A stretch of 64,000 nucleotides of DNA, taken from the NCBI RefSeq assembly GCF_004216565.1, contig NZ_SGWV01000010.1, positions 62,001-126,000 of the forward strand, in the 5' to 3' direction. The DNA comes from Sphaerotilus mobilis. GTDB taxonomy: Bacteria; Pseudomonadota; Gammaproteobacteria; Burkholderiales; Burkholderiaceae_C. Positions within the stretch are counted from its first letter, which is position 1. The number at the start of each line of letters is the position of its first letter. The position numbers and the translations under genes were made by a program. The notes under the pieces are model-generated. The model had not been told where the DNA came from and searched no databases. It worked only from the letters and a program-made list of their open reading frames with translations. Positions 5,323 through 39,801 of the stretch are shown here, piece by piece.

Positions 5323-5448
5323 CGGGTGACGAGGGTGGGCGCACGGGAACACGCCCCCGAGTCTGCGCCGGCCAGGTTGGCGGCGCATGGCGCGCAGACC
5401 TGCGGCGTGTGACGGATGCAATCCGCCGGGGCTCAGGCCAGGCCCTGG

Positions 5449-6513: not shown

Positions 6514-6553
6514 GAGAAAGCTTCTGCGTTGTGGCTGATCGGCGCGGTGTCGA

Positions 6554-7084: not shown

Positions 7085-7095
7085 GGTCAAGCGGC

Positions 7096-7968: not shown

Positions 7969-7990
7969 GGTGTGTGACGTGTGACGGCAC

Positions 7991-8533
7991 TCAGGCCGCC
8001 AGACGCTCCTGTTCCTCGTCGCACAGGCAGGCCAGTGCCTCGATGTCGAGCACGTGATCCGTCTCCAGCAGCGTGATGAAACGCTCCTGGCGACGCACCA
8101 CGCCGCGGATGTGTTCGCGCCCGATGGCGCTGCCGAAGGTCGGCGCAGGCTCGATGGTGGCCGGGTCGATGTCGATGACCTCGCTGACCGCATCGACCAT
8201 CAGGCCGAGCTCGATGCGTTCGACATGGCTGCCGTTCGGCCGGCGGGCCTCGAAGATCACGATGCAGGTCTTCTCGCCGACCTCGGCCTGGCCTCGGCCC
8301 AGCCGGGCCTGCAGGTCGATCACCGGCACGACCGAGCCGCGCAGGTTGATCACGCCGCGCACGAAGGCGGGGGTGCGGGGCACCAGCGTCATCGGGCCGA
8401 ACTGGATGATCTCGCGCACCGCCTCGATGCCGACGGCGAAGACCCGCTCACCCAGCCAGAAGGTCAGGTGCTGCAAGGCGGCCGTCTCATCGGACGGGTC
8501 CGCTGCCTGCACCTTGGGGGACACGGCGTTCAT
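7991..8533 (-). CDS. cheW: Chemotaxis coupling protein CheW
   Basis: A 180-residue scaffold that couples receptors to CheA. A single CheW-like beta-barrel domain begins at about residue 25 (LTFWLGERVFAVGIEAVREI), with the RGVINLRGSVVPVIDLQARLG signature that contacts receptor and kinase, then GLMVDAVSEVIDI. The start is set by a strong GAGGAG ribosome site 9 bases upstream. A C-terminal tail (ALACLCDEEQERLAA) slightly exceeds the usual CheW length. It is 10 bp after the PAS-containing receptor gene, so both are probably made in proportion. Confidence 0.96.
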   Translation of the reverse strand: MNAVSPKVQAADPSDETAALQHLTFWLGERVFAVGIEAVREIIQFGPMTLVPRTPAFVRGVINLRGSVVPVIDLQARLGRGQAEVGEKTCIVIFEARRPNGSHVERIELGLMVDAVSEVIDIDPATIEPAPTFGSAIGREHIRGVVRRQERFITLLETDHVLDIEALACLCDEEQERLAA

Positions 8534-8543
8534 GCCGGGCTCC

Positions 8544-10811: not shown

Positions 10812-10863
10812 GGTGTCTGTCCTTCGGTCTGCGGGCGAGCGTTGTCGGGGTGTTCAACGGTGT

Positions 10864-13173: not shown

Positions 13174-13535
13174 CGTGTGTCCTCGAGGATGGCCGCAGCC
13201 GCTTCGTCCACCGCATGCCGATCCAGCCAGGCCGACAGGCCCAGCGTGTGGCAGGCCGCAACCAGCGCATCGCCGGGTGCCTGCAGGCGCCAGGAACGTT
13301 CGTCGCGTTCACACAGGCGTGAGAGCGCCACCAGCAACTGCACGCCGGCACCGTCGACGTCGATCACGGCAGCGGCATCGACCACCAGCGGCGCATCCGC
13401 ATCGGTCGCACCGGCCAGCGCGGCCAGCAGCGCATCGCGGGTCTCGGTGGCCGTGAAGATGGTGAGTTCGGCCGGCAGCGCGAAGTGGGGCGTGCTCGTC
13501 GTGGTGGCTGTGGTTGCTGTGGTGGCTGTGGTCAT
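13170..13535 (-). CDS. STAS-domain protein between cheY and cheA
   Basis: A 121-residue single STAS domain (anti-sigma-factor-antagonist fold). Strand and helix pattern are typical: AELTIFTATETRDALLAAL, LVVDAAAVIDVDGAGVQLLVAL, then a helix and WRLQAPGDALVAACHTLGL. The loop that carries the phospho-Ser in SpoIIAA (DSSG) reads DVDGAG here, so the regulatory serine is missing. This fits a constitutive binding module rather than a phospho-switch. The N-terminus is a low-complexity Thr/Ala run (TTATTATTATTT) written by 9-base repeats. Both junctions are 4-base ATGA overlaps, tying its translation to cheY and cheA. It probably binds CheA or CheY, but that is inference. Confidence 0.9.
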   Translation of the reverse strand: MTTATTATTATTTSTPHFALPAELTIFTATETRDALLAALAGATDADAPLVVDAAAVIDVDGAGVQLLVALSRLCERDERSWRLQAPGDALVAACHTLGLSAWLDRHAVDEAAAAILEDTR

Positions 13536-13900
13536 GGCAGCACCAGCTTGGCCACGGCGTCGAGCAGCACCGGCGGGTTGAAGGGCTTGACGATCCAGGC
13601 CTTGGCCCCGGCCGCCTTGCCCTGCTGCATGCGGTCGCCACCGTTCTCGGTGGTCAGCATGATCACGGGGGTGAACTTGTAGCGGGCGTTGGCCTTCATC
13701 TGCGCGACGAAGGTGATGCCGTCCATGCGGGGCATGTTGACGTCGCTGACGACAAGGTTGATCTTGCGACCGTCGAGCTTGGTCAGCGCGTCCATGCCAT
13801 CGCCGGCCTCGATCACGTCGTAGCCGGCCCTCGTCAAGGCGATGGAGACGACCTGGCGCAAGGAGGCCGAGTCGTCGACGATCAGGATGGTCTTGCTCAT
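13532..13900 (-). CDS. cheY: Single-domain CheY-type response regulator
   Basis: A 122-residue stand-alone receiver. The acidic pocket is LIVDDSASLR, the phospho-acceptor Asp53 lies in VVSDVNMPRMDG, the switch Thr in VIMLTTENG, and the conserved Lys in AWIVKPFNPP. It should be phosphorylated by the CheA encoded just downstream. No DNA-binding or enzymatic domain is attached, so output is through protein contact (a flagellar switch or another partner). It overlaps the STAS gene by four bases; 114 non-coding bases separate it from the upstream receptor gene. Confidence 0.95.
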   Translation of the reverse strand: MSKTILIVDDSASLRQVVSIALTRAGYDVIEAGDGMDALTKLDGRKINLVVSDVNMPRMDGITFVAQMKANARYKFTPVIMLTTENGGDRMQQGKAAGAKAWIVKPFNPPVLLDAVAKLVLP

Positions 13901-14014
13901 GAGCGAAACACCATGGGGTAAGGATCAGGGGAGAAGGATCGATCCGACCGGGTCAACCTGAAGGCAGGAACAGCGGGTGAAAAACCTCGAACCAGTCAGG
14001 GTCGACGGCCAGCG

Positions 14015-15079
14015 TCAGAAGAACACCGCCCCGCCGCTGGCCTGGGTGGCCTGGGTCGGATCAAGGCTCAGGTCCTTCTGTTCGGCCGTCGTGTAGCCAG
14101 CGGCCAGCAGGGCATCCCAGTCCTCGGCGGGCGGCAGGCGGCCGGTCTCGGCGGCCTCCAGCAGGCAGGCACGCGTGGCGCTCATCGACTGGGTGATCTG
14201 GTCGAGGATCTGTTGCACCCGGTCCTGGAACTGGAAGGCGATCAGCAGCTGTTCGACCTGCACGCGCACGTCCTCGCTGCGGCGCGAGAGGTCCAGCGTG
14301 CGGGCGTTGAGCACCTCGACGGTGTGGTCGACACGCTCGATGACGCGGGTGACGGTCTGCTCCGAACGCTGGATCAGCGTCTGGTCCTCGCGCACCTGTT
14401 CGGTCGCCTGCGTCAGCGTGCGCTGGACCTGGTCGCCAAACACACGGACCTGCTCGCCGATGCGCCGGCCGGTCTCGCCCGAGGCGGTCGACAGACGTCG
14501 CACCTCGGCGGCGACGACGCTGAAGCCACGTCCGGCCGGACCGGCGCGGGCCGCCTCGATGGCGGCGTTGATCGACAGCAGATTGGTCTGACGCGCCAGG
14601 CCGTCGACGTCTTCGGCCATGTCGCGCAGACCCGAGGAGGCGCGGTCGAGCGAGCGGACGGTGCCAAGCAACTCGTCGCGCGACGCGATGAAGGCGCCGA
14701 AGCTGCCGATCAGGTCACGCAACTCGCGGTCGCACTGCGACAGCATGTTCACGCGCAGCACCAGATCGGAGCCGTCGACAGGCTCGGCGCTCACCGGGGT
14801 GATGTCATCGAGCTGGTCGAGGATGACGCGGAAGCCGCCGATCAGGCGCTCGGTGGCCTCGCGCATCTGCGTCTGCACGCTTTCGATGTGCTGGGTCCAG
14901 AGCTGCGTGGCGGCCTCGATGCGATGGGCCGCCTCCTGGGCCGACAGGGCCGTCCCGGCGGACATCGGCCCTGCCGCTTCGGCGGGCGCCCGCCGGGCCC
15001 GCCAGCGCTGCAGCAAGACAGCACTCAGCCAGCCCAGCGCGAACAGCGCCGGCCAGACGATGAAGGAAGAGGGTTGCAT
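14015..15079 (-). CDS. Membrane-anchored MCP-like receptor without a sensor domain
   Basis: A 354-residue MCP-signalling protein. It has one N-terminal membrane helix (about residues 5-23, [18 protein letters not shown]) directly followed by Arg-rich sequence and a long coiled coil. The receptor tip is [20 protein letters not shown] (about residues 170-190), a variant of the usual [18 protein letters not shown]. No periplasmic or PAS sensing module is visible. The C-terminal part ([13 protein letters not shown]) recalls proteins that accompany chemosensory arrays. It lies first in the che cluster, ahead of cheY. The start ATG lacks a clear ribosome site. It may report membrane state or bind a partner through its coiled coil. 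Confidence 0.9.
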
Positions 15080-26557: not shown

Positions 26558-27643
26558 ATGACCCGCGTCTTCAACTTCAGCTCCGGACCCGCCGTCCTGC
26601 CCGAGAGCGTGCTGCGGCAGGCCGCCGAGGAGATGCTTGACTGGCACGGCTCGGGCATGTCGGTGATGGAGATGAGCCACCGCGGGCCGCAGTTCATGGC
26701 CATCCTGGACGAGGCCCAGTCGCTGTTCCGCGAGCTGCTGGGCGTGCCCGATGACTACCGCACGCTGTTCCTGCAGGGCGGCGCGATCGGCGAAATGGCG
26801 ATCGTGCCGATGAACCTGCTGGGCGCGAAGACCAGCATCGACTTCGTCAACACCGGCACCTGGTCGAGCAAGGCCATGAGCGAGGCCGGCCGCTATGCCC
26901 GCATCAACGAGGTGGCGAGTTCGGCGGCGACAGCGTTCGACCGCATCCCGGCCTTCGAGACCTGGCGGCTGGACCCGGATGCGGCCTATGTGCACATCTG
27001 CTCGAACGAGACCATCGGTGGCGTCGAATACCACTGGACGCCCGACACCGGCGACGTGCCGCTGGTGGCCGATGTCTCCAGCAACATCCTGTCGGCCCCG
27101 CTGGACGTGACGAAGTTCGGCCTGCTCTACGGCGGTGCGCAGAAGAACGTCGGCCCGGCCGGCCTGACGCTGGTGGTGGTGCGCGACGACCTGCTCGGCC
27201 GGGCCCTGCCGATCACGCCCTGCGCCTTCGACTTCGCCCAGCAGTCCGACAACGGCTCGATGCTCAACACCCCGCCGACCTATGCGATCTACATCGCCGG
27301 CCTGGTGTTCCGCTGGCTCAAGGCCCAAGGCGGCCTGGTCGCCATCGAGGCGCTCAACCTCCGCAAGGCCGGCCTGCTCTACGACACCATCGACGCCAGT
27401 GGCGGCTTCTACGTCAACCCGGTGGCGGTGGCGGACCGCTCGCTGATGAACGTGCCCTTCCGCCTGCCGGACGCGCGCCTGGACGCGCCCTTCCTGGCCG
27501 AGGCCGAGGCGCTCGGCATGGTCCAGCTCAAGGGCCATCGCTCGGTCGGCGGCATGCGCGCGTCGATCTACAACGCGATGCCGGTCGAGGGCGTGCAGCG
27601 CCTGGTCGATCACATGCTGGACTTTGCCCGTCGCCATGGTTGA
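26558..27643 (+). CDS. serC: Phosphoserine aminotransferase SerC
   Basis: A 361-residue PLP-dependent class V aminotransferase. It converts 3-phosphohydroxypyruvate plus glutamate to phosphoserine in serine synthesis, and also serves pyridoxal phosphate synthesis. It opens with the family motif VFNFSSGPAVLPESVL. The substrate and cofactor loops are MEMSHRG and LQGGA, and the PLP-binding Lys196 lies in YGGAQKNVGPAG. NTPPTYAIY and the C-terminal GHRSVGGMRASIYNAM complete the signature. The start is fixed by ATCAGGAGAG. It is the first gene before the substrate-binding protein/c-di-GMP trio, with 17 bases to the next ATG, so it may lead that operon. Confidence 0.97.
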   Translation: MTRVFNFSSGPAVLPESVLRQAAEEMLDWHGSGMSVMEMSHRGPQFMAILDEAQSLFRELLGVPDDYRTLFLQGGAIGEMAIVPMNLLGAKTSIDFVNTGTWSSKAMSEAGRYARINEVASSAATAFDRIPAFETWRLDPDAAYVHICSNETIGGVEYHWTPDTGDVPLVADVSSNILSAPLDVTKFGLLYGGAQKNVGPAGLTLVVVRDDLLGRALPITPCAFDFAQQSDNGSMLNTPPTYAIYIAGLVFRWLKAQGGLVAIEALNLRKAGLLYDTIDASGGFYVNPVAVADRSLMNVPFRLPDARLDAPFLAEAEALGMVQLKGHRSVGGMRASIYNAMPVEGVQRLVDHMLDFARRHG

Positions 27644-27660: not shown

Positions 27661-28665
27661 ATGCCCTTGCCCACCAGCCAAGCCGTCGACGATCCCGCGC
27701 GCCGCCACTGGCTGGGCCGTGGCCTGGGCGCCGCCGCCGGGCTGCTGGCGCTGCCGGGCCTGAGTGGCTGCAGCCGCCCGGAGCCGCTGCTGCGGGTGGC
27801 CAGCAACAACTGGCCCGGCTATGCGCTGATGCATGCGGCGCAGGCGCTCGGGCGCTTCGACCCGACGCGCCTGCGGCTGATCGAGATGCCCTCGTCGTCG
27901 GACGTGGTGCAGTCGCTCGCCGCCGGGACGGTCGAGGCCGGCGCGCTGACGCTCGATGAGCTGCTGGCCGCCCGCGCCGACGGACTGGACCTGGTCGCCG
28001 TGCTGGTGTTCGACGAGTCTCGCGGCGGTGATGCGGTGGTGGCGCGACCGATGGTGCGTGACCTCACCGACCTGGCCGGACGACGCATCGGCGTCGAGCA
28101 GAGCGCCGTGGGCGCGCTGGTGCTGCACGCCACCTTGCGCAGCGCCGGGCTGCGGCTGGATCAGGTCCGGCCGGTCGTGATGACCGTGGCCGAGCATGTG
28201 CAGGCCTGGCGCGAAGGGCTGGTCGACGCGCTCGTGAGCTTCGAGCCGGTGGTCAGTCAGGTGATGGCACTCGGCGGCAAGCGCCTGTTCGACAGCCGCT
28301 CCATGCCCGGCGCGATCGTCGACGTGCTGGCCGTGCCACGACCGGTCCTGGCCCAGCACCCGCGCGGTCTGCGCCAGATCGCGGCGGCGCACTTCGAGAT
28401 GCTGGCCCTGTGGCAGCAGGACCCGCAAAGGCTGCTGCCGCTGCTGGGCGAACAGCTTGGCCTCGGACCCGAAGCCGTGCGACAGGCCTTCGAAGGCCTG
28501 TACCTGCCGGACCTGGCGCTCAACCGCGACTGGCTGACGGGCGAGACACCGAAGTTGACGGCCAGCGCCAGCGCCCTGGTCGAGGTCATGCAGATCGGGC
28601 ACATGCTGCCGCGCCCGCCTGCGCTGGCGGGCCTGGCCAGCGGCCTGGCACTGGAACCCAGATGA
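27661..28665 (+). CDS. Substrate-binding lipoprotein (ABC-type SBP, no transporter nearby)
   Basis: A 334-residue periplasmic binding protein of the NMT1/ThiY/SsuA-like type. A lipoprotein signal with arginines before it (ARRHWLGRGLG) ends in LSGC near residue 38, so it should be tethered to a membrane. The mature part has LLRVASNNWPGYALMHAA, VVQSLAAGTVEAGALTLDE and GVEQSAVGALVLHATL, typical of two-lobed solute receptors. No permease or ATPase gene is adjacent. Its TGA overlaps the next gene's ATG (ATGA), linking it to a HAMP/PAS sensor and a GGDEF-EAL protein. I infer a sensing rather than an uptake role. The ligand is unknown. Confidence 0.88.
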   Translation: MPLPTSQAVDDPARRHWLGRGLGAAAGLLALPGLSGCSRPEPLLRVASNNWPGYALMHAAQALGRFDPTRLRLIEMPSSSDVVQSLAAGTVEAGALTLDELLAARADGLDLVAVLVFDESRGGDAVVARPMVRDLTDLAGRRIGVEQSAVGALVLHATLRSAGLRLDQVRPVVMTVAEHVQAWREGLVDALVSFEPVVSQVMALGGKRLFDSRSMPGAIVDVLAVPRPVLAQHPRGLRQIAAAHFEMLALWQQDPQRLLPLLGEQLGLGPEAVRQAFEGLYLPDLALNRDWLTGETPKLTASASALVEVMQIGHMLPRPPALAGLASGLALEPR

Positions 28666-30413
28666 GCGCCACCTTGCGCCACGTCTTCCGGCTGCCCTTG
28701 CGCATCACCCTGCCGCTGGTGGTCGCACTCGTGTTGCTGGTCACCACAACGGCCAGCCTCGTCAGTGCCTGGCAACGGTCGATCGAACGACTGAGCGCGA
28801 CGTCGGAGATGCTGCTGCACACCGAGATGCACCGGCTGATCCGCCTCGACAGCGATGCCGAGGACCTGCACGACCGCCGCCCCACGGACCACGTCTGGCG
28901 CGAGATCAGCCACCTGGCGACCCGGCCACTGGTGCGCGAGGTGGCGTTGATCGACCCCGACGGCAAGGTCCGTCAGGCCCACCGGCGCAACTGGACCGGC
29001 CAGCCGGCCGCAGCGGTGATCGACGGCTGGCAGCCCGAATGGCTCGCCCGCGGCCTGGCCACGCGCCAACCCATCGTGCTGACCAGCCGCGACGGCGAAC
29101 GCATGACGGGTCTGCAGAGCTACCAGCGCCGTGCCCTGGACCCGAACCAGCCTCGGCAACTGGCGACGTCGCTGGTCTACGTGCGCACCGATCTGCGGTC
29201 GGCCCGACAGGAACTGGCGGTCAGCGAATTCCGCGAGCGCCTGCCCGAACTCGTCGCCCAGGTGGTGTTGATCCTGCTGGTGGGCGGGCTGGTCCACGCC
29301 GGTCTGGCGCGGCCGCTGAACCGGCTGGAGCAGACCAGCGCCCGCTGGGCCCGAGGCGATCTGAGCCTGCACGCCTCGGAACAAGGTCCGGCCGAGATCG
29401 CCCGGCTGGCCGCGTCGTTCAACCAGATGGTCGACACCCTGCGCCGGCATCGCGACGACCTCATCGCCAGCGAGGACCGGCTCTCCACCGTGCTCTATTC
29501 GACCGGCGACGCGCTGCTGGCCACCGATGCGCAACACCGCATCACGCTGCTGAACCCGACGGCCGAGGCGTTGACCGGCTGGCGCGAGTTCGAGGCCTGT
29601 GGCCGGCCGGTCGCCGAGGTCTTCCGGATTGAACATGCGCAGACCGGCGAACCGGCGGAGATTCCCGTCCAGCGTGTGCTCGACAGCGGCCTGGTGGTCG
29701 GTCTGGCCAACCACACCGTGCTGGTCTCGCGTCAGGGCCGTCGCACCCACATCGCCGACAGCGCCGCGCCGCTGCGCAACGCCAGCGGCGACCTGCGCGG
29801 CGTGGTGATCGTGTTCCGCGACGTGACCGAGTCCTACCGGCTCGAACAGGCCCTGGCCGAGAGCGAACTGCATTACCGGGCGCTGGCCAATGCCGGCCAT
29901 GCCCTGATCCTCACCACCGACCTCGACGGCCGCAGCCTCTGGAGCAACGAGCCCTGGCTGACCTGGACCGGCCAGACCGAGGCCAGCCGCGGCGAGGTCG
30001 ACTGGCTGTCGCTGGTCCACCCGGAAGACCTGGACGCAGCCTGGATGGACTGGCGCCGCGCCATTGCCCAGCACGCCCCTTTCGAGCAGAGCCTGCGCCT
30101 GCGCCGGGCCGATGGCAGCCATGCCTGGGTGCGGGTCAAGGCGGTCCCCCGGCTCGGGGCTGACGGGCGATTCCAGGGCCATGTGCTGCAGGCCATCGAC
30201 ACCAGCCACGAGCGCGAGGCCGACCAGCGCCTGGCGTCCCAGGTCGACGAATTGCGGCGCTGGCAGACCGGGGTGATCGGGCGCGAGGAACGCATCGCGG
30301 CCTTGAAGGCCGAGGTCAACGACTTGCTCCAGCAACTGGGACGCCCCGACCGCTACGAGACCGGCGCGAGGGTGACGGTGTCCAACCCGAACGAATCCGA
30401 CAGGAACCCGTGA
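28662..30413 (+). CDS. HAMP-PAS-PAS membrane sensor with no output domain
   Basis: A 583-residue sensor. The order is membrane helix (about 13-36), periplasmic domain (about 37-194), second helix (about 196-217), HAMP (about 215-268), PAS (about 272-390), PAS (about 400-518), and a coiled coil ending ERIAALKAEVNDLLQQLGRP. That last motif normally bridges a PAS domain to a kinase or GGDEF domain, yet here the protein stops about 20 residues later. No histidine kinase, GGDEF, EAL or MCP module is present. It shares a four-base overlap with the binding-protein gene upstream and with the GGDEF-EAL gene downstream. It probably relays the ligand signal by direct contact. Confidence 0.9.
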   Translation: MSATLRHVFRLPLRITLPLVVALVLLVTTTASLVSAWQRSIERLSATSEMLLHTEMHRLIRLDSDAEDLHDRRPTDHVWREISHLATRPLVREVALIDPDGKVRQAHRRNWTGQPAAAVIDGWQPEWLARGLATRQPIVLTSRDGERMTGLQSYQRRALDPNQPRQLATSLVYVRTDLRSARQELAVSEFRERLPELVAQVVLILLVGGLVHAGLARPLNRLEQTSARWARGDLSLHASEQGPAEIARLAASFNQMVDTLRRHRDDLIASEDRLSTVLYSTGDALLATDAQHRITLLNPTAEALTGWREFEACGRPVAEVFRIEHAQTGEPAEIPVQRVLDSGLVVGLANHTVLVSRQGRRTHIADSAAPLRNASGDLRGVVIVFRDVTESYRLEQALAESELHYRALANAGHALILTTDLDGRSLWSNEPWLTWTGQTEASRGEVDWLSLVHPEDLDAAWMDWRRAIAQHAPFEQSLRLRRADGSHAWVRVKAVPRLGADGRFQGHVLQAIDTSHEREADQRLASQVDELRRWQTGVIGREERIAALKAEVNDLLQQLGRPDRYETGARVTVSNPNESDRNP

Positions 30414-33400
30414 GCGATCCGGCCCGTGCAGCGGCAGGCGCCGCCCTCGTCTTCGCGACCAGCCTCGGCATCGCCGCACTGGGCGTCACCGACCCGAACG
30501 ACATCGCGCTGTCGGCATGGCTGCAGGCTGTGGCGGCGGGGCTGCTGGCAGGCGTGCTGATCCTGCTGGCCCTGCACGGGCGACAGCAGGCCCGCGACGA
30601 TCAGGCGCGGCAGCGCGAACTGATCGAGATGGCCGACGTCGGCATGAGCCTGACCGAGTCCGATGGCCGACTCGCTCAGGTCAACCGGCGCTACGCAGAA
30701 ATCGTCGGGCGCAGCGTCGAGCAGCTGCTGACGCTGCGCTTCCAGGACCTGACCCACCCTGACGACCTGGACAGCGACCTGACCCAGATGGCCGAACTGC
30801 TGGCCCGCCAGATTCCCTACTACCGGATGCAGAAGCGCTACCTGCGACTGGACGGCAGCTCGGTGTGGGTCCTGCTCACGGTCACGCTGGCCCAGTCGAG
30901 CGGGCGCGCGTCCGGCCTCGCCCGTCGCGTGATGCGCGACGAACCACCGCGTTTCATCTCGACGATCCAGGACATCAGCGAGCTGCGTCAGACCCAGGAC
31001 GCGCTGCAGCACCAGCGCACCCAGCTCGAACAGGTCATCCGCGGCATTCCCGACTGCCTGACGATGCGCGACATCGACGGCCGCTACCAGCTCGTCAACC
31101 CCGCCGCCGAGCGGCTGATCGGGCGGCCGGCGGCCGAGATCCTCGGCAAGCGCGCCGAGGAGGTCTATCGGCACGGCGTCATGGCCGAGACACCCGAGAT
31201 CGACCGGCGCGTGATCGACCGTGGCGAGCCGGTCCGGCACGAGGCCCGCCTGAGCGGCGACAACGGCGCGCTGGCCACGATCGACCTGGTGATCTCGCCG
31301 CTGGTCGGACCCGATCAGCGGCCCTACGGTGTCATCTCGGTGGGCCGCGATGTCACCCATGAGCGCCACAACCTGCGCCTGCTCGAACAGGCCAGCCATC
31401 GCAACCGCGAACTGCTGACGGAGGCCGAACGGTCGCGCCTGGCCCTGTTGTCGTTGCTCGAAGACCAGCGCGATGCACAGGCGGCCCTGAGCGCCAGCGA
31501 AGCCCGGCTGCGCGCCGTCGTCGCGGCATTGCCCGACCTGATCTTCCTGTTCGATGCCCAGACCCGCCTGATCGACATCTGGAGCAGCAGCGACGACAAC
31601 CTGCTCGGACCGCGCGAAGCCTTCATCGGCCAGCGGCTGAGCGAGTTCCTGCCGCACGCGTTGGCCGCGCTGGCCACAGAGGAGATCCGCGCGGCGCTGG
31701 AACACGGCAAGGGCCAGCCCTTCGAGTACAGCCTGACGCTGCCCGCCGGTGAACGCTGGTACGAGATGCGCACGGCCCGGGTCGGCCACGACGTGGCCCT
31801 GGGTGTCGCACGCGACATCACCCGTGAACGCGAGGCTCGGCAGGCCCAGCGACGCACCGAGGACAACCTGCTGCTGGCCGTCGAAGGGACCGGCGATGGC
31901 CTGTGGGACTGGGACCTCATCAGCGACAACGTCGGCTATTCGGTGGCCTTCGAGCGGCTGCTGCGCTACGAAGGTCAGACGCCGTTCTCGGCCCGCTTCC
32001 TGTTCCGCGACCGGCTGCACCCGGACGACCGCGAGCGCTGCGTGAACGCCGTGCGCGACGCGATCAAACAAGGCATCCGCTTCGACGCCACCTACCGGCT
32101 CATGTGCTTCGACGGCGAATACCGCTGGTTCCAGGGCCGCGGCATGTGCCACCGAGCCCCGGACGGCCAGCCGCTGCGCTTCTCCGGCGTCCTGTCGGAC
32201 CTGTCTGACCGTTTGCGCGACGAGGAGCGGCTGCGCCTGGCCGCGCAAGTCCTCGACAGCACGCAAGAGGGCGTCATGATCACCAACGCCCAGCGCCGCA
32301 TCGTCTCGGTCAACCGTGCCTTCACCACGCTGCTGGGCTACACCGAGGCCGAGGTGCTGGGCCGCACGCCGCGCATGCTCAGCTCCGGTCGCCACGAGGC
32401 CGCCTTCTACGACGCGATCTGGGCCGAGCTGGACCAGACCGGCCAGTGGAAGGGCGAGATCTGGAACCGTCGCAAGGACGGCGAACTGATGCCCGAGCTG
32501 CTGTCGATCAGCGCGGTGCACGACATCACCGGCGCGATCTCGCACTATGTGGGCGTGTTCGCCGACATCTCGCGCATGAAGGACTCCGAGGCCCGGCTCG
32601 AATTCCTGGCCCACCACGACCCGTTGACCCGCCTGCCCAACCGCCTGCTGTTCAACCAGCAGATGGAACAGGCGCTGCATCAGGCCCAGCGCGAGCACCG
32701 TCGCCTGGCCGTGTTGCTGCTGGACCTGGACCGCTTCAAGGACATCAACGACAGCTACGGCCACCTCGCCGGTGACGAGCTGCTGCAGCACGTCGCACAG
32801 CGCCTGACCGGTCGGCTGCGCCAGTCCGACACCCTGGCCCGGCTGGGTGGCGACGAGTTCGCCCTGCTGATGCACGACCTGCGTTACGACGACGACGCCG
32901 CCCGGCTGGCAAGCGAGCTGCTGGGCGCGCTGTCGCAGCCCTGGCGCAGCAGCGACGGCGTGGAGGTCAACGTCGGCGTCAGCATCGGCATCTGCATCTA
33001 CCCGGACCACGGCCAGACCTCGCAGGCGCTGCTGCAGGGTGCGGATGCGGCGCTCTACCGCGCCAAGGGCGACGGTCGCGGTGTCTACCGCTACTACGCC
33101 GATGAGATGACCCAGTCCGCCCGCGAGCGCCTGCACCTGGAGACCCGGCTGCGCCGCGCGCTGGTCGACGACCAGCTGGTGCTGCACTACCAGCCTCAGG
33201 TCGAGCTGCAGACCGGGCGCATCGTCGGCGCCGAGGCGCTGGTGCGCTGGATGGACCCGGAACACGGCCTGATCCCGCCCGGTCGCTTCATCCCGGTGGC
33301 CGAGACCACCGGCCTGATCGGCGACATCGGCGCCTGGGTGCTGGCCGAGGCCTGCCGGCAGGGCAAGGCCTGGCTGGACGAGGGCCTGCCGCCGCTGACG

Positions 33401-33934
33401 CTGGCGGTCAACGTCTCACCGCGCCAGTTCCGCCATGCCGACCTGGCCGCCCAGGTCATGCAGACCCTGATCGAGACCGGTCTGCCGGCCGAGCAGCTGG
33501 AGCTGGAGCTGACCGAAGGCGCGCTGATGGAGCGCGAGCAGGAGGCGCTCGACGTCCTGCAGCGCCTGCGTGCGATCGGCGTGGGCGTCGCCATCGACGA
33601 CTTCGGCACCGGCTATTCCTCGCTGGCCTACCTCAAGCGCTTCCCGCTGGACGTGCTCAAGATCGACCGCAGCTTCATCGCCGACATCCCCAACGACCCG
33701 GACGACATGGAGATCGCCGCAGCCGTCATCGCCATGGGTCACAGCCTGGGCATCCGCGTGCTGGCCGAAGGCGTCGAGACGGTCGACCAGCTGGCCTTCC
33801 TGCGCTTCAAGCACTGCGACCGCTACCAGGGTTTCCTGTGCAGCCGCCCGGTCCCGCCCGATGAGTTCGCGGCCCTGCTGCGCGCGCAGATCACCCGGGC
33901 CGACAACGAGGACCCTCAGCCCTTCGACGCGTAG
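30410..33934 (+). CDS. Multi-PAS diguanylate cyclase/phosphodiesterase (GGDEF-EAL)
   Basis: A 1174-residue c-di-GMP enzyme. It has two N-terminal membrane helices (about 8-28 and 37-58) and about five PAS domains (about 65-190, 205-330, 360-475, 485-600, 605-725). The GGDEF domain (about 735-895) has an intact GGDEF and, five residues before it, the RQSD inhibitory I-site. The EAL domain (about 910-1160) has GAEALVRW, NVSPRQF, ELTEGALM, IDDFGTGYSSL, KIDRSF and AEGVET, so both halves look catalytically competent. It starts at a GTG overlapping the previous stop (GTGA). The balance of synthesis and hydrolysis presumably depends on the sensor encoded upstream. Its last 19 bases overlap the flippase gene on the other strand. 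Confidence 0.95.
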   Translation: MSDPARAAAGAALVFATSLGIAALGVTDPNDIALSAWLQAVAAGLLAGVLILLALHGRQQARDDQARQRELIEMADVGMSLTESDGRLAQVNRRYAEIVGRSVEQLLTLRFQDLTHPDDLDSDLTQMAELLARQIPYYRMQKRYLRLDGSSVWVLLTVTLAQSSGRASGLARRVMRDEPPRFISTIQDISELRQTQDALQHQRTQLEQVIRGIPDCLTMRDIDGRYQLVNPAAERLIGRPAAEILGKRAEEVYRHGVMAETPEIDRRVIDRGEPVRHEARLSGDNGALATIDLVISPLVGPDQRPYGVISVGRDVTHERHNLRLLEQASHRNRELLTEAERSRLALLSLLEDQRDAQAALSASEARLRAVVAALPDLIFLFDAQTRLIDIWSSSDDNLLGPREAFIGQRLSEFLPHALAALATEEIRAALEHGKGQPFEYSLTLPAGERWYEMRTARVGHDVALGVARDITREREARQAQRRTEDNLLLAVEGTGDGLWDWDLISDNVGYSVAFERLLRYEGQTPFSARFLFRDRLHPDDRERCVNAVRDAIKQGIRFDATYRLMCFDGEYRWFQGRGMCHRAPDGQPLRFSGVLSDLSDRLRDEERLRLAAQVLDSTQEGVMITNAQRRIVSVNRAFTTLLGYTEAEVLGRTPRMLSSGRHEAAFYDAIWAELDQTGQWKGEIWNRRKDGELMPELLSISAVHDITGAISHYVGVFADISRMKDSEARLEFLAHHDPLTRLPNRLLFNQQMEQALHQAQREHRRLAVLLLDLDRFKDINDSYGHLAGDELLQHVAQRLTGRLRQSDTLARLGGDEFALLMHDLRYDDDAARLASELLGALSQPWRSSDGVEVNVGVSIGICIYPDHGQTSQALLQGADAALYRAKGDGRGVYRYYADEMTQSARERLHLETRLRRALVDDQLVLHYQPQVELQTGRIVGAEALVRWMDPEHGLIPPGRFIPVAETTGLIGDIGAWVLAEACRQGKAWLDEGLPPLTLAVNVSPRQFRHADLAAQVMQTLIETGLPAEQLELELTEGALMEREQEALDVLQRLRAIGVGVAIDDFGTGYSSLAYLKRFPLDVLKIDRSFIADIPNDPDDMEIAAAVIAMGHSLGIRVLAEGVETVDQLAFLRFKHCDRYQGFLCSRPVPPDEFAALLRAQITRADNEDPQPFDA

Positions 33935-35523
33935 CGTTGCAAGGCCAACACGCGGCGGCCGATGGGGCCGAAGCGGCGGGTCTGATCGGCCAGGAAGGCC
34001 AGGTCCTCGGCGCTCCACGCACGCACCCAGAAGGTCGCGGCGATGTAGAGGGCGATGAAGGCGGCACCGGCGATGAAGGGCGCGAGCAGGCCGCCGATCC
34101 AGATCGTCGGCACCGCAAGCAGGCCAGCCGACAGCAGCGCGGCGACGCTCAGGCGCAGCATCGGACCGGTCGGGATCGTCATGCCACCGACCTTCGCGGC
34201 CACCACCAGCCAGGCGATGTGGATCACCACCGCGCTGGCACCGTAGGCCAGCAGCGCACCGTTCAGGCCATGGCGGGGCACCAGCCACCAGGCGGCGGCG
34301 CCGAACAGCAGCACCGAGCCGCCGGTCACCGCCGTGCGCACACGCTGGCGGTCGGTGGTCGACAGCAGCGTGGCCAGCACACCGGCGGGCAGCGTCAGGC
34401 CGCCCAGCACGACCAGGACCTGGAAGGACAGCACCGCCTCGGCATAGCGCGCGCCATAGAGCGTCAGCACCAGCGGCTCGGCCCAGAACAGGCCGACACC
34501 GGCCAGCAGCAGGCCGAAGGCATGGAAGACCCGCACCGCGTTGGCACCGATGCGCTGCGTGCGCTCCTGGCCGCCCTCGCCGTAGCCGTGCGACATCAGC
34601 GGCATCAGCACCGAGTTCAGGCCGGACGACAGCAGCTCGATGCCGCCGCGCGTCAGCGACATCGCCACGCTGAAGTAGCCCACCGCGTCGGCGCCGACAT
34701 GCTGGTTCAGGAAGGGCACCATCATCGACGGGCCGTAGAGCACGGCCATCAGCGTCAGCAGCGCCGTCCAGAGGTAGTGGTTGTTGACCCGCGCGGCCAG
34801 GCCGGGGTCGAGCGGCTGGGGCGCGAGCGGCCGCCTGACGCGGTCCTTCATGCGCGAGAGCATCAGCGGGTGGACCAGGTTGCTCAGCACGAACAGCGCG
34901 AGGAAGGCGTCCAGGTCGGCATCGACCAGCATCAGCGCGACGATGCAGGCGGCGTTGACCAGGCTCAGCACCGACATGGTCTTGGCCTCGATGCCGAAGC
35001 GGCCGTGGCCCTTGGCCATCGAGATGCCGAACAGGTACCAGGCCTTGGGCACCGAGGCGCAGGCGACGATCAGCCAGACGCTGCCCAGGTGGCCTTCCCA
35101 GCCGGCCGGCTGCAACAGCGGCAGGGCCAGCGCCAGCAGCGCGGCCACCACGACGATCGAGCCCCACTGACGTCGCCAGAACCAGCGGTGCAGGCTGGCC
35201 ACGCCCACCGGATCGCCGCGCCCGAGGGACTCGGAGACGTAGCGGATCGAGGTCGTCGTCAGGCCGTTGTTCATGAACATGACCACCAGCCCGCCCAGCC
35301 ACACCAGGTAGGCATAGCGGCCATAGTCGGCCGGGCCGAGCGCACGGGCGATCAGCAAGCTGCCGATCAGGCCGGCGGCATAGGCGACATAGGTCGAGCC
35401 GGTCACCATCAGCGCGGCACGCAGCGCGGCGGCGGCGCCAAAGCCCTTGTGGGCAGGGGCGGGTGCGGGTGCGGGTGCGGGTGCGGGTGCGGGTGCGGGT
35501 GCGGAAGTCGGGGTGGCGCTCAT
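33916..35523 (-). CDS. Polysaccharide flippase (Wzx/oligosaccharide translocase family)
   Basis: An about 535-residue MATE/MOP-superfamily membrane protein with 12-14 predicted helices. It begins with the family-type segment VAYAAGLIGSLLIARALGPADYGRYAYLVWL, shown here only in part as LLIARALGPADYGRYAY. It flips lipid-linked oligosaccharide across the inner membrane for exopolysaccharide or O-antigen assembly. The N-terminus has an Ala-Pro repeat (about residues 6-21) encoded by a hexanucleotide microsatellite. A second ATG 18 codons upstream would overlap the deacetylase gene stop and is a real alternative. It is last in a minus-strand operon and overlaps the GGDEF-EAL gene tail to tail. Confidence 0.9.
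   Translation of the reverse strand: MSATPTSAPAPAPAPAPAPAPAPAHKGFGAAAALRAALMVTGSTYVAYAAGLIGSLLIARALGPADYGRYAYLVWLGGLVVMFMNNGLTTTSIRYVSESLGRGDPVGVASLHRWFWRRQWGSIVVVAALLALALPLLQPAGWEGHLGSVWLIVACASVPKAWYLFGISMAKGHGRFGIEAKTMSVLSLVNAACIVALMLVDADLDAFLALFVLSNLVHPLMLSRMKDRVRRPLAPQPLDPGLAARVNNHYLWTALLTLMAVLYGPSMMVPFLNQHVGADAVGYFSVAMSLTRGGIELLSSGLNSVLMPLMSHGYGEGGQERTQRIGANAVRVFHAFGLLLAGVGLFWAEPLVLTLYGARYAEAVLSFQVLVVLGGLTLPAGVLATLLSTTDRQRVRTAVTGGSVLLFGAAAWWLVPRHGLNGALLAYGASAVVIHIAWLVVAAKVGGMTIPTGPMLRLSVAALLSAGLLAVPTIWIGGLLAPFIAGAAFIALYIAATFWVRAWSAEDLAFLADQTRRFGPIGRRVLALQRYASKG
35461..35502. repeat. Hexanucleotide microsatellite (GGGTGC)7
   Basis: Seven uninterrupted GGGTGC units lie near the 5' end of the flippase gene, where the minus strand encodes (Ala-Pro)n. 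The six-base period keeps the frame, so slippage would change only the length of the AP tract before the first membrane helix. Confidence 0.92.
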
Positions 35524-35563
35524 CGGACGGTGTTCCAGGGGCGGGCCGGCAGGGGCCGCCGGA

Positions 35564-36544
35564 TCAGGTCGAGCCATGTCGCACGTAGGACGCAGCCCGC
35601 ATCAGCTGCAGGAAGACCTTGGCGTAGGTGGTCTTGGACAGCGCCACGCGGGGGTACTCGTAGCGGTCGGTCTGGCGGTCGCCCACGCCATAGGCGGTCG
35701 ACACCGCCGAGCTGTAGCCGGCCTCGCGCACGATGGCCGCATGGCGGGCGTTGTAGTCGGCGCCCGGCTTGCCGTTGGGGTAGGCAAACGTCATCGGCGT
35801 GATGCCGGTCAGGTCGCGCAGGGCATCGCGGTTGGACACGATCTCGCGCCGCGCGGTGTCGTCGTCGACCGTCGACAGGATCGGGTGATTGACGGTGTGG
35901 CCGCCGATCGACATGCCGCGCCGGGCCATGGTGACGACCTGCTCGGGGGTCATCATCACGTCCTCGGGCAGGGGGCAGGCGGCCAACGCGGCCAGTGCCT
36001 CGGTGGCGGCCTGGCGCTGGTGCGGCTCGTTGTGCTTGATGTCGCGCGTGATCACCGAGATGGCCCGCACCCGCGAGGCGGCGTCACCCAGCATCAGCGG
36101 CTCGATGCCCCAGTCGGCCAGATCCAGCGGGCCGTCAGGCAGGCGGCGGACCGCCTCCAGCACGGTGTCGTTGAACATCCGGCCGGTGCCCAGAAAGCCC
36201 GAGGCGACGAAGAAGGTCGCCGTCAGCTTGTGGCGCTCCAGCAGCGGCAGCGCGACGTCGTGGTTGTCGCGGTAGCCGTCGTCGAAGGTGATGCACAGCG
36301 TGCGCGGCTTGAGCCGGCCGGTGTGCAGCTCATCGATCGCGGCCTCCATCGGCACCACCCGGAACAGCTCGGACAGCAGCTTGAACTGCAGATCAGCCAG
36401 TGCGGCGTCGGGCACGCTGGGCTGGAGCGGATCGGGTTGGGCCAGGATGCGGTGGTACATCAGCACCGGCAGACGCACGGGGCCTCGCGCCGCATAGGCA
36501 AGGCTGGCCGTGGTGCGCAGGAGGCCGTTGGTGAGGATGCTCAT
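35564..36544 (-). CDS. Polysaccharide deacetylase (NodB-fold, CE4-like)
   Basis: A 326-residue deacetylase. The NodB fold shows VLMYHRIL, then the catalytic Asp/metal Asp pair in CITFDDGYRDN, TFFVASGFLG, the metal His pair in SIGGHTVNHPIL (HxxxH), and TFAYPNGK. Such enzymes remove acetyl groups from polymer sugars, usually in the envelope. A GTG four codons upstream is another possible start. It sits in the acyltransferase/GNAT/deacetylase/flippase operon, 40 bases before the flippase start, which ties it to the same polysaccharide. It shows no obvious signal peptide. Confidence 0.92.
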   Translation of the reverse strand: MSILTNGLLRTTASLAYAARGPVRLPVLMYHRILAQPDPLQPSVPDAALADLQFKLLSELFRVVPMEAAIDELHTGRLKPRTLCITFDDGYRDNHDVALPLLERHKLTATFFVASGFLGTGRMFNDTVLEAVRRLPDGPLDLADWGIEPLMLGDAASRVRAISVITRDIKHNEPHQRQAATEALAALAACPLPEDVMMTPEQVVTMARRGMSIGGHTVNHPILSTVDDDTARREIVSNRDALRDLTGITPMTFAYPNGKPGADYNARHAAIVREAGYSSAVSTAYGVGDRQTDRYEYPRVALSKTTYAKVFLQLMRAASYVRHGST

Positions 36545-36619
36545 GTGGTTCTGCACTTTCCCTGAGACGGCTGAGCGGCGCCTGATCCGCGTGCCGTGTG
36601 AACCCAGTATGCGGAGGGT

Positions 36620-37885
36620 TCAGTCTTCTTCCTTGGCGGGCGCTGAAGCCACCTCGCCCGGGCTCTCTTGGCCCTTCTGTCTGTGCTGTCTGACCTGCCG
36701 GACCCAGATCCGCAACTGCTGTTCGAGGCGGAAGCGCCACGCCGGCTTGCGCCAGACCGACCAGGTCATGCCTTCATGGTCGGTCGCCACGGTGGCCTTG
36801 TACTGCGACTCGCCGGCCAGCAGGTCGTAATAGCCATGGCCCAGACCGGCGTTGTGCTGGATCGCCAGCGCATGCGTGACCAGGCCCGGGCGGCCGTGTT
36901 TCTCCAGCAGGCCGTAGTCGAAGCCAGACTGGTAGACGTAGAGCCGCCCGCCGCGCACGAAGCTGTAGAGGTAGCCCATCGGCCGGTCGCCGGTGCGCAC
37001 GCGCAGCAGCTGCACGCCGCCGTCGGGCCAGGCCAGGTCGATCAGGCGGTGGTGGAAGTCGAGCACGCCGGAGCCGGCGAAGGCGCCCGTCAGGCCGCGC
37101 TTGTGCCAGATCGCCTCGTGCAGGCGGATCAGCTCGTCGAGGAACTGGCCGGCCTGCACACGGCTGTCGGCGACCTCCACGGCGAGCGGGCCGATGACGG
37201 TCTGGTACTCCTTCATGCTGCGGCGCACGAAGCGGCGCGCATGGCTGCTCAGCAGCGGCGTGAAGTCCAGCTTGGCGTCACGCACAGGGCCCAGCGCGAC
37301 GCCGGCCGAAGGCTTGGTCTCGTCCTCGGCTGTCATGCCGGCGGGCAGCAGCCGGGCCCAACCCTCGCCGACCAGGCCGGGCAGGTGCAGCTCGGCGGCC
37401 GAGCCGGCCACCTGCTGCCAGTGCGCCAGCATGGCCGCGCGCAGCGCGTCGGCGTGTTCGGGCAGGACCAGGAAGTCGTTGTGTTCGATGCAGATCTTGT
37501 CCAGCACCGGATCACCGCTGGCGTGCAGGTGCCAGGCCTCGCAGAAGGAGACGGGGCCAAGCTTGCGCCGGGTGCGCACCAGCAGCGCGAGGCCGACCAC
37601 CCGGCCTTGCAGGCGGGCCTGCAGCACCCGGACATCGGCCGATGGCGGCAGCATGCCCAGCCAGGCGCCGATCCAGGGCCAGTCGAGGAAGGCACTGGCA
37701 GCAGCGCCGACACGGCCGGCGAGTTCGCGCCACTGGCCTTCCAGGCCGTGGACCTCGCGCAGCGGCCGGCAGCTCAGTTCCAGGCCCGACAGGCTTGCGG
37801 CACTGGCCGAAGGGGTCGTGCGCGCGGCGGACGGGACAGGGTCTGCGGACCCTTGCAGTTTCGAGACGGGGGCGAAGCTCATCAT
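36620..37885 (-). CDS. GNAT/FemAB-like acyltransferase of polysaccharide operon
   Basis: A 421-residue protein of the BioF2-like/CelD-BcsL acetyltransferase group found in exopolysaccharide and cellulose clusters. A GNAT-like core lies around residues 220-375: RRSMKEYQTVIGPL, ELIRLHEAIWHKRG, GYLYSFVRGGRLYVYQSGFD, and YYDLLAGESQYKATVA. The segment with Y-x-G-FD and GE--YK is typical of this family. Two adjacent ATG codons make the start ambiguous by one residue. It is ten bases after the acyltransferase 3 gene and 75 bases before the deacetylase gene. It likely acylates a sugar or lipid intermediate in the cytoplasm. Confidence 0.85.
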   Translation of the reverse strand: MMSFAPVSKLQGSADPVPSAARTTPSASAASLSGLELSCRPLREVHGLEGQWRELAGRVGAAASAFLDWPWIGAWLGMLPPSADVRVLQARLQGRVVGLALLVRTRRKLGPVSFCEAWHLHASGDPVLDKICIEHNDFLVLPEHADALRAAMLAHWQQVAGSAAELHLPGLVGEGWARLLPAGMTAEDETKPSAGVALGPVRDAKLDFTPLLSSHARRFVRRSMKEYQTVIGPLAVEVADSRVQAGQFLDELIRLHEAIWHKRGLTGAFAGSGVLDFHHRLIDLAWPDGGVQLLRVRTGDRPMGYLYSFVRGGRLYVYQSGFDYGLLEKHGRPGLVTHALAIQHNAGLGHGYYDLLAGESQYKATVATDHEGMTWSVWRKPAWRFRLEQQLRIWVRQVRQHRQKGQESPGEVASAPAKEED

Positions 37886-37895
37886 GGGTTCGGCC

Positions 37896-38954
37896 TCAGA
37901 CGGTCTGCGCGGCGGCCGACGACGGCTTGGCCACCAGCTTGGCCCAGCCCGGGCGGACGAACAGGAAGCGCAGCGGGCCGTTCTGGATCAGGCGATGCAG
38001 CAGCAGCGGCACGGCCGCGCCGAAGACCACCGCCAGCGTCGCCACCACGTCCATCGGCAGGCCCGGCAGGTGCTGATGCAGGAGCCGCGTGAACTGGGTC
38101 AGCGGGATGTAGAAGCCGAGATAGACCACGATGGACTGGCTGCCCGAGTAGCTCAGCCAGCGCAGCCAGGACACCTCGGCGACCAGGCTGCTCAGCGCGA
38201 TGATGGCGCTGATGCCCACAAAGCCGGCCAGCAGGTCCAGCCCGCCGATCTGGGTCAGGCCGGCGCTGACGGCCAGCTGGTTGAGCACGGCCCACAGCGC
38301 GATCAGGCCCCAGGTCAGCGGCGGGCGCTGGCGGGCCCTTTCGGCCAGCTGGTGGATCAGCGGCGCGCCGAAGTGGCCGCTCAGGAAGAAGACGTAGTAG
38401 GCGTTGAAGTTGTCGACCGGGGCGAAGCCGGTCTTGACATGGCTGGCCATGGCGGCGGCAGCGACCGTCCAGAGCAGCCAGTTCGGCACCCACTTGAGCA
38501 GCCGGGTGACGATGAAGAACACCGGCAGCGTCTGGATGAACCACAGCATGTGGTCCGGGTAGATCAGCTTCCAGATGTAGGCCTTGATCAGCGCCACCGC
38601 ACCGCCGCCGGCGATCTCCACATGGCCAAGCACGGCCACGTCATAGGCCAGCAGGATGGCGACCCACAGGAACAGGAAGTAGGCGTAGTGCGCGACCTTG
38701 GTGTCGAGGTAGCTGCGCCACGGCCGGTGGATCACGGCCGACAGGAACAGGCCCGAGAGCAGGAAGAAGTCGGGCATCCGGAACGGCCGGGCAAAGGCCG
38801 ACCAGGGGTCGAGCCAGCCGGCCTGGCCGAACAGGGCTTCAAGGTCGTTGCGGGCGTAGAGCCCGACCACGGCAATGATGCAGATGCCTTTGGCGATGTC
38901 GACCCAGCCATGGCGGCTGGGGCGGGCGGCACGGACCGGAGAGGTGCTGTTCAT
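37896..38954 (-). CDS. Acyltransferase 3 family membrane protein
   Basis: A 352-residue integral membrane O-acyltransferase with about ten helices. The family N-terminal motif is RHGWVDIAKGICIIAVV, with MPDFFLLSGLFLS after the second helix (the 'R--ee--FF-SG' region). SYSGSQSIVVYLGFYIPL lies near the C-terminal third. These enzymes carry acetyl or other acyl groups across the membrane to decorate polysaccharides. I start at the ATG just before S-T-S-P-V because the longer frame upstream lacks coding character. It is the first gene of the four-gene polysaccharide operon. Confidence 0.9.
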   Translation of the reverse strand: MNSTSPVRAARPSRHGWVDIAKGICIIAVVGLYARNDLEALFGQAGWLDPWSAFARPFRMPDFFLLSGLFLSAVIHRPWRSYLDTKVAHYAYFLFLWVAILLAYDVAVLGHVEIAGGGAVALIKAYIWKLIYPDHMLWFIQTLPVFFIVTRLLKWVPNWLLWTVAAAAMASHVKTGFAPVDNFNAYYVFFLSGHFGAPLIHQLAERARQRPPLTWGLIALWAVLNQLAVSAGLTQIGGLDLLAGFVGISAIIALSSLVAEVSWLRWLSYSGSQSIVVYLGFYIPLTQFTRLLHQHLPGLPMDVVATLAVVFGAAVPLLLHRLIQNGPLRFLFVRPGWAKLVAKPSSAAAQTV

Positions 38955-39106
38955 GCGTCGGCGATGAGTCAGGGGCGCGCAAGGGCTGCGCGGCGAGCGA
39001 TCGAAGAATACGGGTGAAACCCTCGGTTCGTTCAGCTTGCAGCCAGCTGTCTGCGGCAACTATTGCCGCATCGCCGCATTCATGCGCAGGGTCTTGCCAG
39101 ACATGA

Positions 39107-39132
39107 AAAAAGCGGGCCGAAGCCCGCTTTTT
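39107..39132. terminator. Bidirectional terminator
   Basis: AAAAAGCGGGC-CGAA-GCCCGCTTTTT is a perfect 11-bp stem whose A and T runs serve both strands. On the minus strand it ends the PEP-CTERM gene transcript, 40 bases after the stop, before the acyltransferase operon promoter region. Confidence 0.92.
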
Positions 39133-39171
39133 GTGGTGCCGCCGACCCACCGGTCGACGCGCCTGGGCCGC

Positions 39172-39801
39172 TCAGGCCGCTTGCTTGCGACGACGGCTCA
39201 GGAAGCCGATGGCGCCCAGGCCAGCCAGCATCATGGCGTAGGTCTCGGGTTCGGGGACGGCGGTGGTGATGCTGACCGAGTCGATCAGCGCGCTCTGGCT
39301 CGGAGTGGTCGAGAAGCTCACCTTGTAGTAGCGAGTCGGGTCGGTGACCGTGAAGTTCTGCGTGTTCAGCGTCCAGCTGGCGCCTGGCGTGAAGTCCTCG
39401 TCAAGGAGGTTGACGAGCGGCAGAGGATTCCCGCCGCCTTGCGCTTGCGAGTAGATCCGAGACGCGCCTTCGCCGATGCTGTAGAAGGACAGCGTGTAGT
39501 TGCCTGCGAGCAATTGGAAGGCGGTCGAGTAGATCGACGTGTCAGCACCGAGACTGACGTACTGGTTGCCCGAGTGCGCTTGCGTGTACGTGAGTGAAGA
39601 CGCCGGGTTCACCAGGAGCGGGGCATTCCGGACGCCCCACGAGTCGGTGAGGTTGTTGAACGCGTCTTGGAACTGGACGACACGCGAGGAGCCGTCGGTG
39701 ACAACGCCGGCCTCGAACGAGCCATTGACGACCTGGGCCTGGGCACCCAGGGCAGCCACGCCGAGGGCGATGGCGCTGAGGAACTGTGCAATCTTGCGCA
39801 T
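39172..39801 (-). CDS. PEP-CTERM sorting-domain protein
   Basis: A 209-residue exported protein. The signal peptide (MRKIAQFLSAIALGVAALGAQA) is followed by VVNGSFEAG, the usual opening of extracellular jelly-roll 'choice-of-anchor' proteins. The C-terminus is a textbook PEP-CTERM tag: VPEPETYAMM, a hydrophobic helix (LAGLGAIGFL) and SRRRKQAA. Such proteins are recognised by exosortase and delivered to the exopolysaccharide layer. A strong GGGAG ribosome site fixes the start. Its codon and base use are less extreme than its neighbours (more A/T in the Ser/Thr-rich middle), common for surface proteins. No exosortase gene is in this window. Confidence 0.95.
   Translation of the reverse strand: MRKIAQFLSAIALGVAALGAQAQVVNGSFEAGVVTDGSSRVVQFQDAFNNLTDSWGVRNAPLLVNPASSLTYTQAHSGNQYVSLGADTSIYSTAFQLLAGNYTLSFYSIGEGASRIYSQAQGGGNPLPLVNLLDEDFTPGASWTLNTQNFTVTDPTRYYKVSFSTTPSQSALIDSVSITTAVPEPETYAMMLAGLGAIGFLSRRRKQAA

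Follow-up and report, generated by a model that had tools for sequence, protein, structure and literature searches.

A solute-binding lipoprotein, an output-less sensor and a GGDEF-EAL enzyme encoded as one unit in Sphaerotilus mobilis, a probable three-protein relay

How would a membrane sensor that carries no output domain pass on what it senses? The question is raised by three consecutive genes in a window of 64,000 nucleotides (the whole stretch of DNA analysed here, from contig NZ_SGWV01000010.1 of Sphaerotilus mobilis), which encode a lipoprotein-type solute-binding protein (SBP; gene 1), such an output-less sensor (gene 2) and a protein with GGDEF and EAL domains (gene 3), associated with making and breaking cyclic diguanosine monophosphate (c-di-GMP), respectively. 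An earlier reading made from the letters only (the sequence-only reading) had proposed that the binding protein feeds a periplasmic signal to the sensor, which would then regulate the enzyme in trans. By surveying related genomes, we found that the three genes form one unit and that sensor and enzyme make a single chain in some relatives, so that the proposal is partly supported. We favour one relay, running from the binding protein through the sensor to a separate GGDEF-EAL enzyme, and give it a probability of roughly 0.74.

Among 13 genomes of the genus, the N-terminal 600 residues of gene 3, gene 2 and close homologues of gene 1 (51-100% identity) were found in the same four (G000-G003), and the other nine had none of them. 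All four carriers have the three genes adjoining in the same order, with 4-nt overlaps in three of them, the fourth having spacers of 17 and 5 nt instead. These overlap lengths hinge on the choice of start codon: another gene caller placed the starts differently in L027, the locus of Leptothrix discophora CCM 2812, which has the three-gene set with a gene 1 identity of 75%. In the window, the junctions are ATGA and then GTGA overlaps (Table 1), as previously described. This all-or-none co-occurrence supports the three genes as one unit, and the linkage expected by the sequence-only reading was indeed present in relatives. Moreover, genes 2 and 3 could be aligned along their lengths in the four genomes, which rules out chance. 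In the family, the N-terminal part of gene 3 was found in 2 of 250 genomes (G000 and G003), both of them carriers, G001 and G002 not being among the matches listed in that draw.

That gene 2 acts on gene 3 is best supported by two relatives, in each of which the sensor chain itself goes on into output of the kind missing from gene 2. First, behind an SBP gene, the single chain of L077 (945 aa) matches residues 13-284 of gene 2 at 28.6% and residues 443-1164 of gene 3 at 55.7% (722 positions), the N-terminal transmembrane (TM)-PAS part of gene 3 having no counterpart there. Second, the single chain of L075 (948 aa) matches residues 78-525 of gene 2 at 41% and residues 704-1157 of gene 3 at 43%. 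Because of these one-chain relatives and of the all-or-none co-occurrence, the best reading of the sequences is that gene 2 would act on the separate gene 3. A further locus, L078, was not counted as a split case, since it appears to be a fused sensor-GGDEF-EAL gene that a frame change, either real or due to assembly, has interrupted.

The Pfam scan of gene 2 gave a HAMP domain (residues 215-261) and two PAS domains (273-393 and 429-503) with no kinase, GGDEF or EAL match, and a periplasmic region (~39-192) lies between two TM helices. This agrees with the previous description of a HAMP-PAS-PAS protein lacking an output. It had also been said that the sensor ends exactly where an output domain should begin. 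The absence of an output domain stood, but the protein continues past the second PAS into a conserved tail of about 55 residues, with the pattern ELxR[WF]...RE...LKxE[VI]NxL..LGxPPxY. The tail is kept in all four split systems, with scores of ~100 bits against at most 5.6 for any other protein of the first neighbourhood set. In the Protein Data Bank it matched mainly short or designed coiled coils, the best being 2yon (E 0.002 over 21 residues), and these matches were uninformative.

Searching more widely with the tail, we found it in 13 of the 299 genomes screened from the family, five of these only through weak matches that were later dropped, and a model built from 12 sequences matched in 49 of 349 phylum genomes. 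We examined 52 tail loci, including the 12 used for the model; several share genera and thus are not all independent. In 35 of the 52, the tail lies at most 40 residues from the end of an output-less protein, and in 12 it is internal, with a kinase farther along the chain. The other five are L212 and L225, where the tail is followed by PocR before a separate kinase gene, and L211, L217 and L223, which reach contig ends. Behind the 35 output-less proteins, an output gene comes directly next on the same strand (within 250 nt) in 25 cases and is among the next two genes in 33, compared with a background of 24 out of 301 other output-less genes of the same loci that have one next to them. When only the 23 tailed output-less loci outside the model were considered, an output gene was among the next two in 21, the misses (L205 and L218) being at contig ends. 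The same parts also occur in both arrangements: L115 has the tail protein and a PocR-kinase as two genes, L191 has tail, PocR and kinase in one chain, and L206, from another family of the order, has an SBP, a tailed sensor and a separate kinase joined by 4-nt overlaps. Weak matches were handled case by case. L122-L126 (E 0.001-0.009) were dropped, since the matches of L123-L125 fall within another protein family, and no called gene of L122 or L126 had a tail. We kept the equally weak L121 (E 0.0012) by hand, because there the tail closes an output-less protein whose gene precedes that of a kinase; gene context thus played a part in this choice. Scored with the later model, to which it had contributed, L121 reaches 60 bits, and leaving it out would change the counts to 34 of 51 and 32 of 34.

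Given that the tail recurs in output-less proteins and inside kinase chains, the output-less sensor is not a lone oddity, and the view that a middle relay without output would be unusual is not supported. Judged by its occurrences, the tail is the hallmark of a class of output-less proteins that turns up repeatedly, with genes for kinases, KaiC-like proteins or a GGDEF-EAL enzyme following theirs. The output-less sensor thus appears as the split form of a pair that also exists as a single chain. The KaiC-like genes, recognised by sequence motif only, follow tail proteins in L114 and L117 after gaps of 24 and 110 nt. Also, in L116, L220, L221, L224 and L226 two genes come after that of the tail protein, first another SBP-like one and then one for a kinase-REC protein; the SBP-like label rests on an NMT1 match by Pfam in L220 alone and on weak SBP-model scores in L116, L221, L224 and L226.

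Gene 1 matches NMT1 in Pfam (52 bits, cut-off 20.5) and has a lipobox, LSG followed by the cysteine C37; in NCBIfam it stays below the cut-offs of both SsuA_fam (88.9 bits, 163.5 required) and ABC_peri_uca (74.2 bits, 333.9 required). No ABC gene adjoins it in the window, in agreement with its previous description as a lipid-anchored receptor lacking a permease or ATPase. We picked SBP loci by sequence score, independently of gene context, and searched 88 of them in six frames; 87 were classed by their score with a sensor-type model (at least 230, 70 loci; at most 215, 17 loci), L206 being omitted as it originated from the tail search. In 63 of the 70 high-scoring loci, a signalling gene opens behind the SBP within 100 bases of its match, and the next signalling open reading frame (ORF) is a kinase (27), a GGDEF-EAL protein (26), a GGDEF protein (5), a chemoreceptor (1) or a split sensor (4). 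The remaining seven comprise the broken fused gene of L078, two loci cut by contig ends (L082 and L094), the output-less sensor of L235, and L237, L238 and L252, where no signalling gene of the search library was found on the SBP strand behind the SBP. ABC genes (ATPase) accompany 14 of the 17 low-scoring homologues, the other three being L265 (before a kinase), L096 (with neither) and L095 (an SBP in two pieces before a kinase). Hence regular placement beside ABC permeases, which the sequence-only reading had named as evidence against itself, was seen only outside the sensor-type group.

The SBP tree (83 rows, drawn with a midpoint root) separated 72 sensor-type proteins from 11 others, namely ten ABC-linked ones and L096, with a support of 99/99. 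The SBPs of the four split systems grouped weakly (85/24), and strongly once the SBP of the fused L077 was included (97/90). Output types required 28 changes across eight labels, compared to a shuffled mean of 46.2, so outputs switched often along the tree. Of 33 aligned sensor-type proteins, 27 have C37 and six a gap at the site, and none of 14 ABC-type proteins has this cysteine. Sensor-type loci are spread over many families of the class, with kinases or c-di-GMP enzymes, and the genus has further, more distant members that precede kinases (L031-L035). Together, these data indicate that gene 1 belongs to a sensor-dedicated SBP group. This genome also has a second copy (L004, 5345-11059), in which the genes behind a sensor-type SBP encode a fused sensor-kinase-REC-REC protein and a REC-HDGYP protein.

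Gene 3 starts with GTG and matches GGDEF (169.9 bits) and EAL (251 bits) in Pfam, and five separate segments of it each match at least one PAS family above cut-off. It contains LGGDEF (812-817), RxxD (804-807), EAL (942-944) and DDFGTGYSS (1063-1071); we take RxxD for the inhibitory site (I-site) and GGDEF, EAL and the loop for catalytic-type motifs. As GGDEF, R804/D807, EAL and the loop residues are invariant in four aligned sequences, the motifs look intact, as they do in bifunctional GGDEF-EAL enzymes and as had been noticed before in this five-PAS protein. Hydropathy predicts two TM helices at its start (one to three in relatives), and gene 3 is therefore probably membrane-anchored. Its best NCBIfam match is the phosphodiesterase DibA (NF045675, 747.8 bits over residues 597-1152), below the cut-off of 980, and gene 3 differs from DibA by having additional PAS segments and the predicted TM helices on its N-terminal side. 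Among plasmids, searched with gene 3 up to 5000 records, the matches listed were GGDEF-EAL proteins of less than 60% identity.

Table 1. Features of the three-gene unit (window coordinates).
Feature	Coordinates	Strand	Basis
Gene 1: lipoprotein-type solute-binding protein, NMT1/SsuA-like, 334 aa, sensor-dedicated group	27661..28665	+	
Gene 2: output-less membrane sensor, 583 aa, TM-periplasmic-TM-HAMP-PAS-PAS-tail	28662..30413	+	
Conserved coiled-coil-like C-terminal tail of gene 2, residues 517-571	30210..30374	+	alignments, genome searches, contexts
Gene 3: two predicted TM helices, five PAS, GGDEF with I-site, EAL, 1174 aa	30410..33934	+	
Gene 3 residues 443-1164 (last two PAS, GGDEF, EAL), fused to an SBP-linked sensor in L077	31736..33901	+	

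In the relay that we favour, the lipid-anchored gene 1 protein would change shape on binding (or losing) a small solute and would then dock on the periplasmic domain of gene 2. Within a gene 2 dimer, the change would be passed via the membrane helices, HAMP and the two PAS domains into the C-terminal coiled-coil tail. The tail may then contact the separately encoded, membrane-anchored gene 3, whose N-terminal TM-PAS part is a candidate for the part that receives the signal. Presuming that both domains are active, the balance of gene 3 between making (GGDEF) and breaking (EAL) c-di-GMP would be shifted in one direction or the other.

Several observations weigh against this relay. The three-gene form with a GGDEF-EAL enzyme is confined to one genus among the genomes searched. 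The predicted structures of genes 1 and 2 were poor (mean pLDDT 46.8 and 35.7, with window and L. discophora sequences), and these models were too weak and left unused. The tail was found in neither L077 nor L075, so that the fusion shows the pairing and not the role of the tail here. At L235 (6886-9374), the SBP is followed by a two-TM sensor of 500 aa with neither output domain nor tail; no same-strand output gene was found within 7 kb behind it, the genes there being on the opposite strand, which means that an output-less sensor need not adjoin its effector. Finally, with its five PAS segments, gene 3 could respond to cytoplasmic cues. Together with its probable membrane anchor, this would suit an operon that reflects co-expression only, in which gene 2 signals another partner and gene 3 uses its own cytoplasmic signals, without contact between the two. 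Sensor-type SBPs do stand before histidine kinases about as often as before c-di-GMP enzymes (27 vs 26 GGDEF-EAL, 5 GGDEF and 4 split). We nevertheless consider such independence unlikely, because L077 and L075 have sensor and enzyme joined in a single chain and because the N-terminal 600 residues of gene 3 are confined, in the genus, to the four genomes with genes 1 and 2, the two family genomes that have this part being among them.

The role of gene 1 can be questioned as well. Cache domains often bind ligands themselves, and the periplasmic region of gene 2 weakly resembles one (dCache_1, 17.2 bits, cut-off 45), so the solute might act directly on gene 2 with gene 1 being merely its scavenger or chaperone. 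We give this little credence, given that an SBP precedes a signalling gene in 63 of 70 loci with differing outputs and that gene 1 keeps most of the motif common to riboswitch-linked SBPs (see below). It is harder still to believe that gene 1 serves an ABC transporter encoded elsewhere and that its place before the sensor is secondary. Most lower-scoring relatives (14 of 17) are in ABC operons, and an ABC ATPase lies within 5 kb in 7 of the 70 sensor-type loci, directly upstream on the same strand in L082 and L086; against this stand the separation of ABC-linked and sensor-linked SBPs in the tree and the restriction of the lipobox cysteine to the sensor-type proteins. The relay through all three proteins thus remains the reading that we prefer.

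Which solute would start the relay? The ABC-linked relatives of gene 1 suggest a guanidine-like ligand. In the tree, the group nearest to the sensor-type SBPs consists of ABC binding proteins (nearest NCBIfam families SsuA_fam and ABC_peri_uca), which differ from them in that 10 of 11 go with ABC genes, 10 of 11 lie directly behind a guanidine-I riboswitch (L005, L036, L037, L038, L039, L040, L096, L097, L098 and L264) and none has the lipobox cysteine. The eleventh without riboswitch, L041, has a contig end near its start, and the other ABC-linked NMT1 loci L042 and L043 had no guanidine-I riboswitch. ABC transporters controlled by such riboswitches take up guanidine, as reviewed in PMC12186494. 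A set of eight residues (T97, D118, S120, G122, D124, S212, P216 and D221) is present in full in 9 of 10 proteins of the ABC side and in 21 of 33 of the sensor type; in the latter, position 118 is D in 25 of 33 and each of the other seven positions is conserved in 31-33. Of the same eight residues, four further NMT1 proteins from the genus have none or single ones, never the full set. At 19 sensor-type loci (the window, L004 and 17 others), no guanidine riboswitch reached threshold, so that control by guanidine is not supported there. Since the shared residues may reflect ancestry rather than the same ligand, guanidine is a first candidate and no more, and by analogy guanidine or a similar small cation is our guess for gene 1. 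In L005 of the same genome (5978-8871), the riboswitch-linked SBP is followed by genes of 358 aa and 260 aa and then by ABC genes. A wider view, that the tail is a general docking module letting output-less sensors drive separate enzymes, with switching between fused and split forms, and that the SBP group detects a guanidine-like cation, giving a candidate guanidine-to-c-di-GMP pathway, is possible and, taken as a whole, doubtful.

NspS of Vibrio cholerae belongs to an SBP family other than that of gene 1. The NspS-MbaA system, put forward as a precedent by the sequence-only reading, holds as such: in the available part of PMC8967002, the periplasmic NspS binds polyamines and controls MbaA, an inner-membrane GGDEF-EAL protein able to make or break c-di-GMP. 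As there, the binding protein gene of the window is linked to membrane GGDEF-EAL receptor genes with no transporter gene adjoining. However, MbaA is one chain, whereas the window has sensor and enzyme as two ORFs (one chain in L077 and L075), and gene 1 is NMT1/SsuA-like, unlike the polyamine-binding NspS; it also differs from SsuA/UCA-type ABC subunits in having no adjacent permease or ATPase in the window. A Sinorhizobium meliloti pair also turned up in part of the search results. The activation of kinases, chemoreceptors and c-di-GMP enzymes by ligand-loaded binding proteins is described as a general mechanism in PMC9602780, whose available part says nothing of an output-less sensor placed as a protein of its own between the binding protein and the enzyme; the available part of a review on c-di-GMP sensing (PMC8846402) was also searched. 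The nearest known linker to the tail is the S-helix, a helical segment of ~40 residues between sensory and catalytic domains (including PAS, PocR, kinases, diguanylate cyclases and EAL), which according to the available part of PMC1592074 has a central ERT signature and stands almost always between two signalling domains. By comparison, all 48 tails checked have RE-x-x-[IVM], and only five contain ERT, always in the N-terminal half; the window tail has no ERT and is not between two domains of one chain, tails being C-terminal in 35 of 52 loci and internal before a kinase in 12. Among the papers listed by our literature searches, with most subscription journals outside their coverage, none stood out on NMT1 binding proteins with GGDEF partners or on the tail or such split pairs, and none was, by title, on periplasmic guanidine sensing.

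Among called genes, the unit is flanked by one for a class-V aminotransferase on its upstream side and one of the polysaccharide-synthesis (flippase) type on its downstream side. The former (26558-27643), which is likely serC, shares the strand of gene 1 and stops 17 nt short of it, so that the two may be co-transcribed; the aminotransferase gene is the next upstream in L027, one gene further in L029 and not upstream in L030. Past gene 3 (33916-39801, minus strand), Pfam identified the flippase-type gene, a polysaccharide deacetylase, a GNAT and an acyltransferase gene, after which comes what is presumably a PEP-CTERM-like protein. These polysaccharide genes were set aside as a target of gene 3, since the neighbours differ in L. 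discophora (L027). Elsewhere, a TPP riboswitch lies just upstream of the split system of L030 in the opposite orientation (5601-5706, minus strand). Two features farther away in the window are an Rfam match to Bcj11 (49971-50092, plus strand, 98 bits, cut-off 49) within ORF 49286-51241, and chemotaxis-cluster-like genes with response-regulator-like and CheA-like N-termini, judged by eye (4087-14965).

Together, our observations make this locus a test bed for the control of an enzyme by a sensor to which it is not fused. Since the same pair is one chain in relatives, the junction between them is open to direct comparison. The tail would offer a sequence handle for pairing orphan sensors with their effectors. 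Finally, as the tree neighbours of this SBP group are guanidine-riboswitch SBPs, the ligand of a group wired to both kinases and c-di-GMP enzymes is directly testable.

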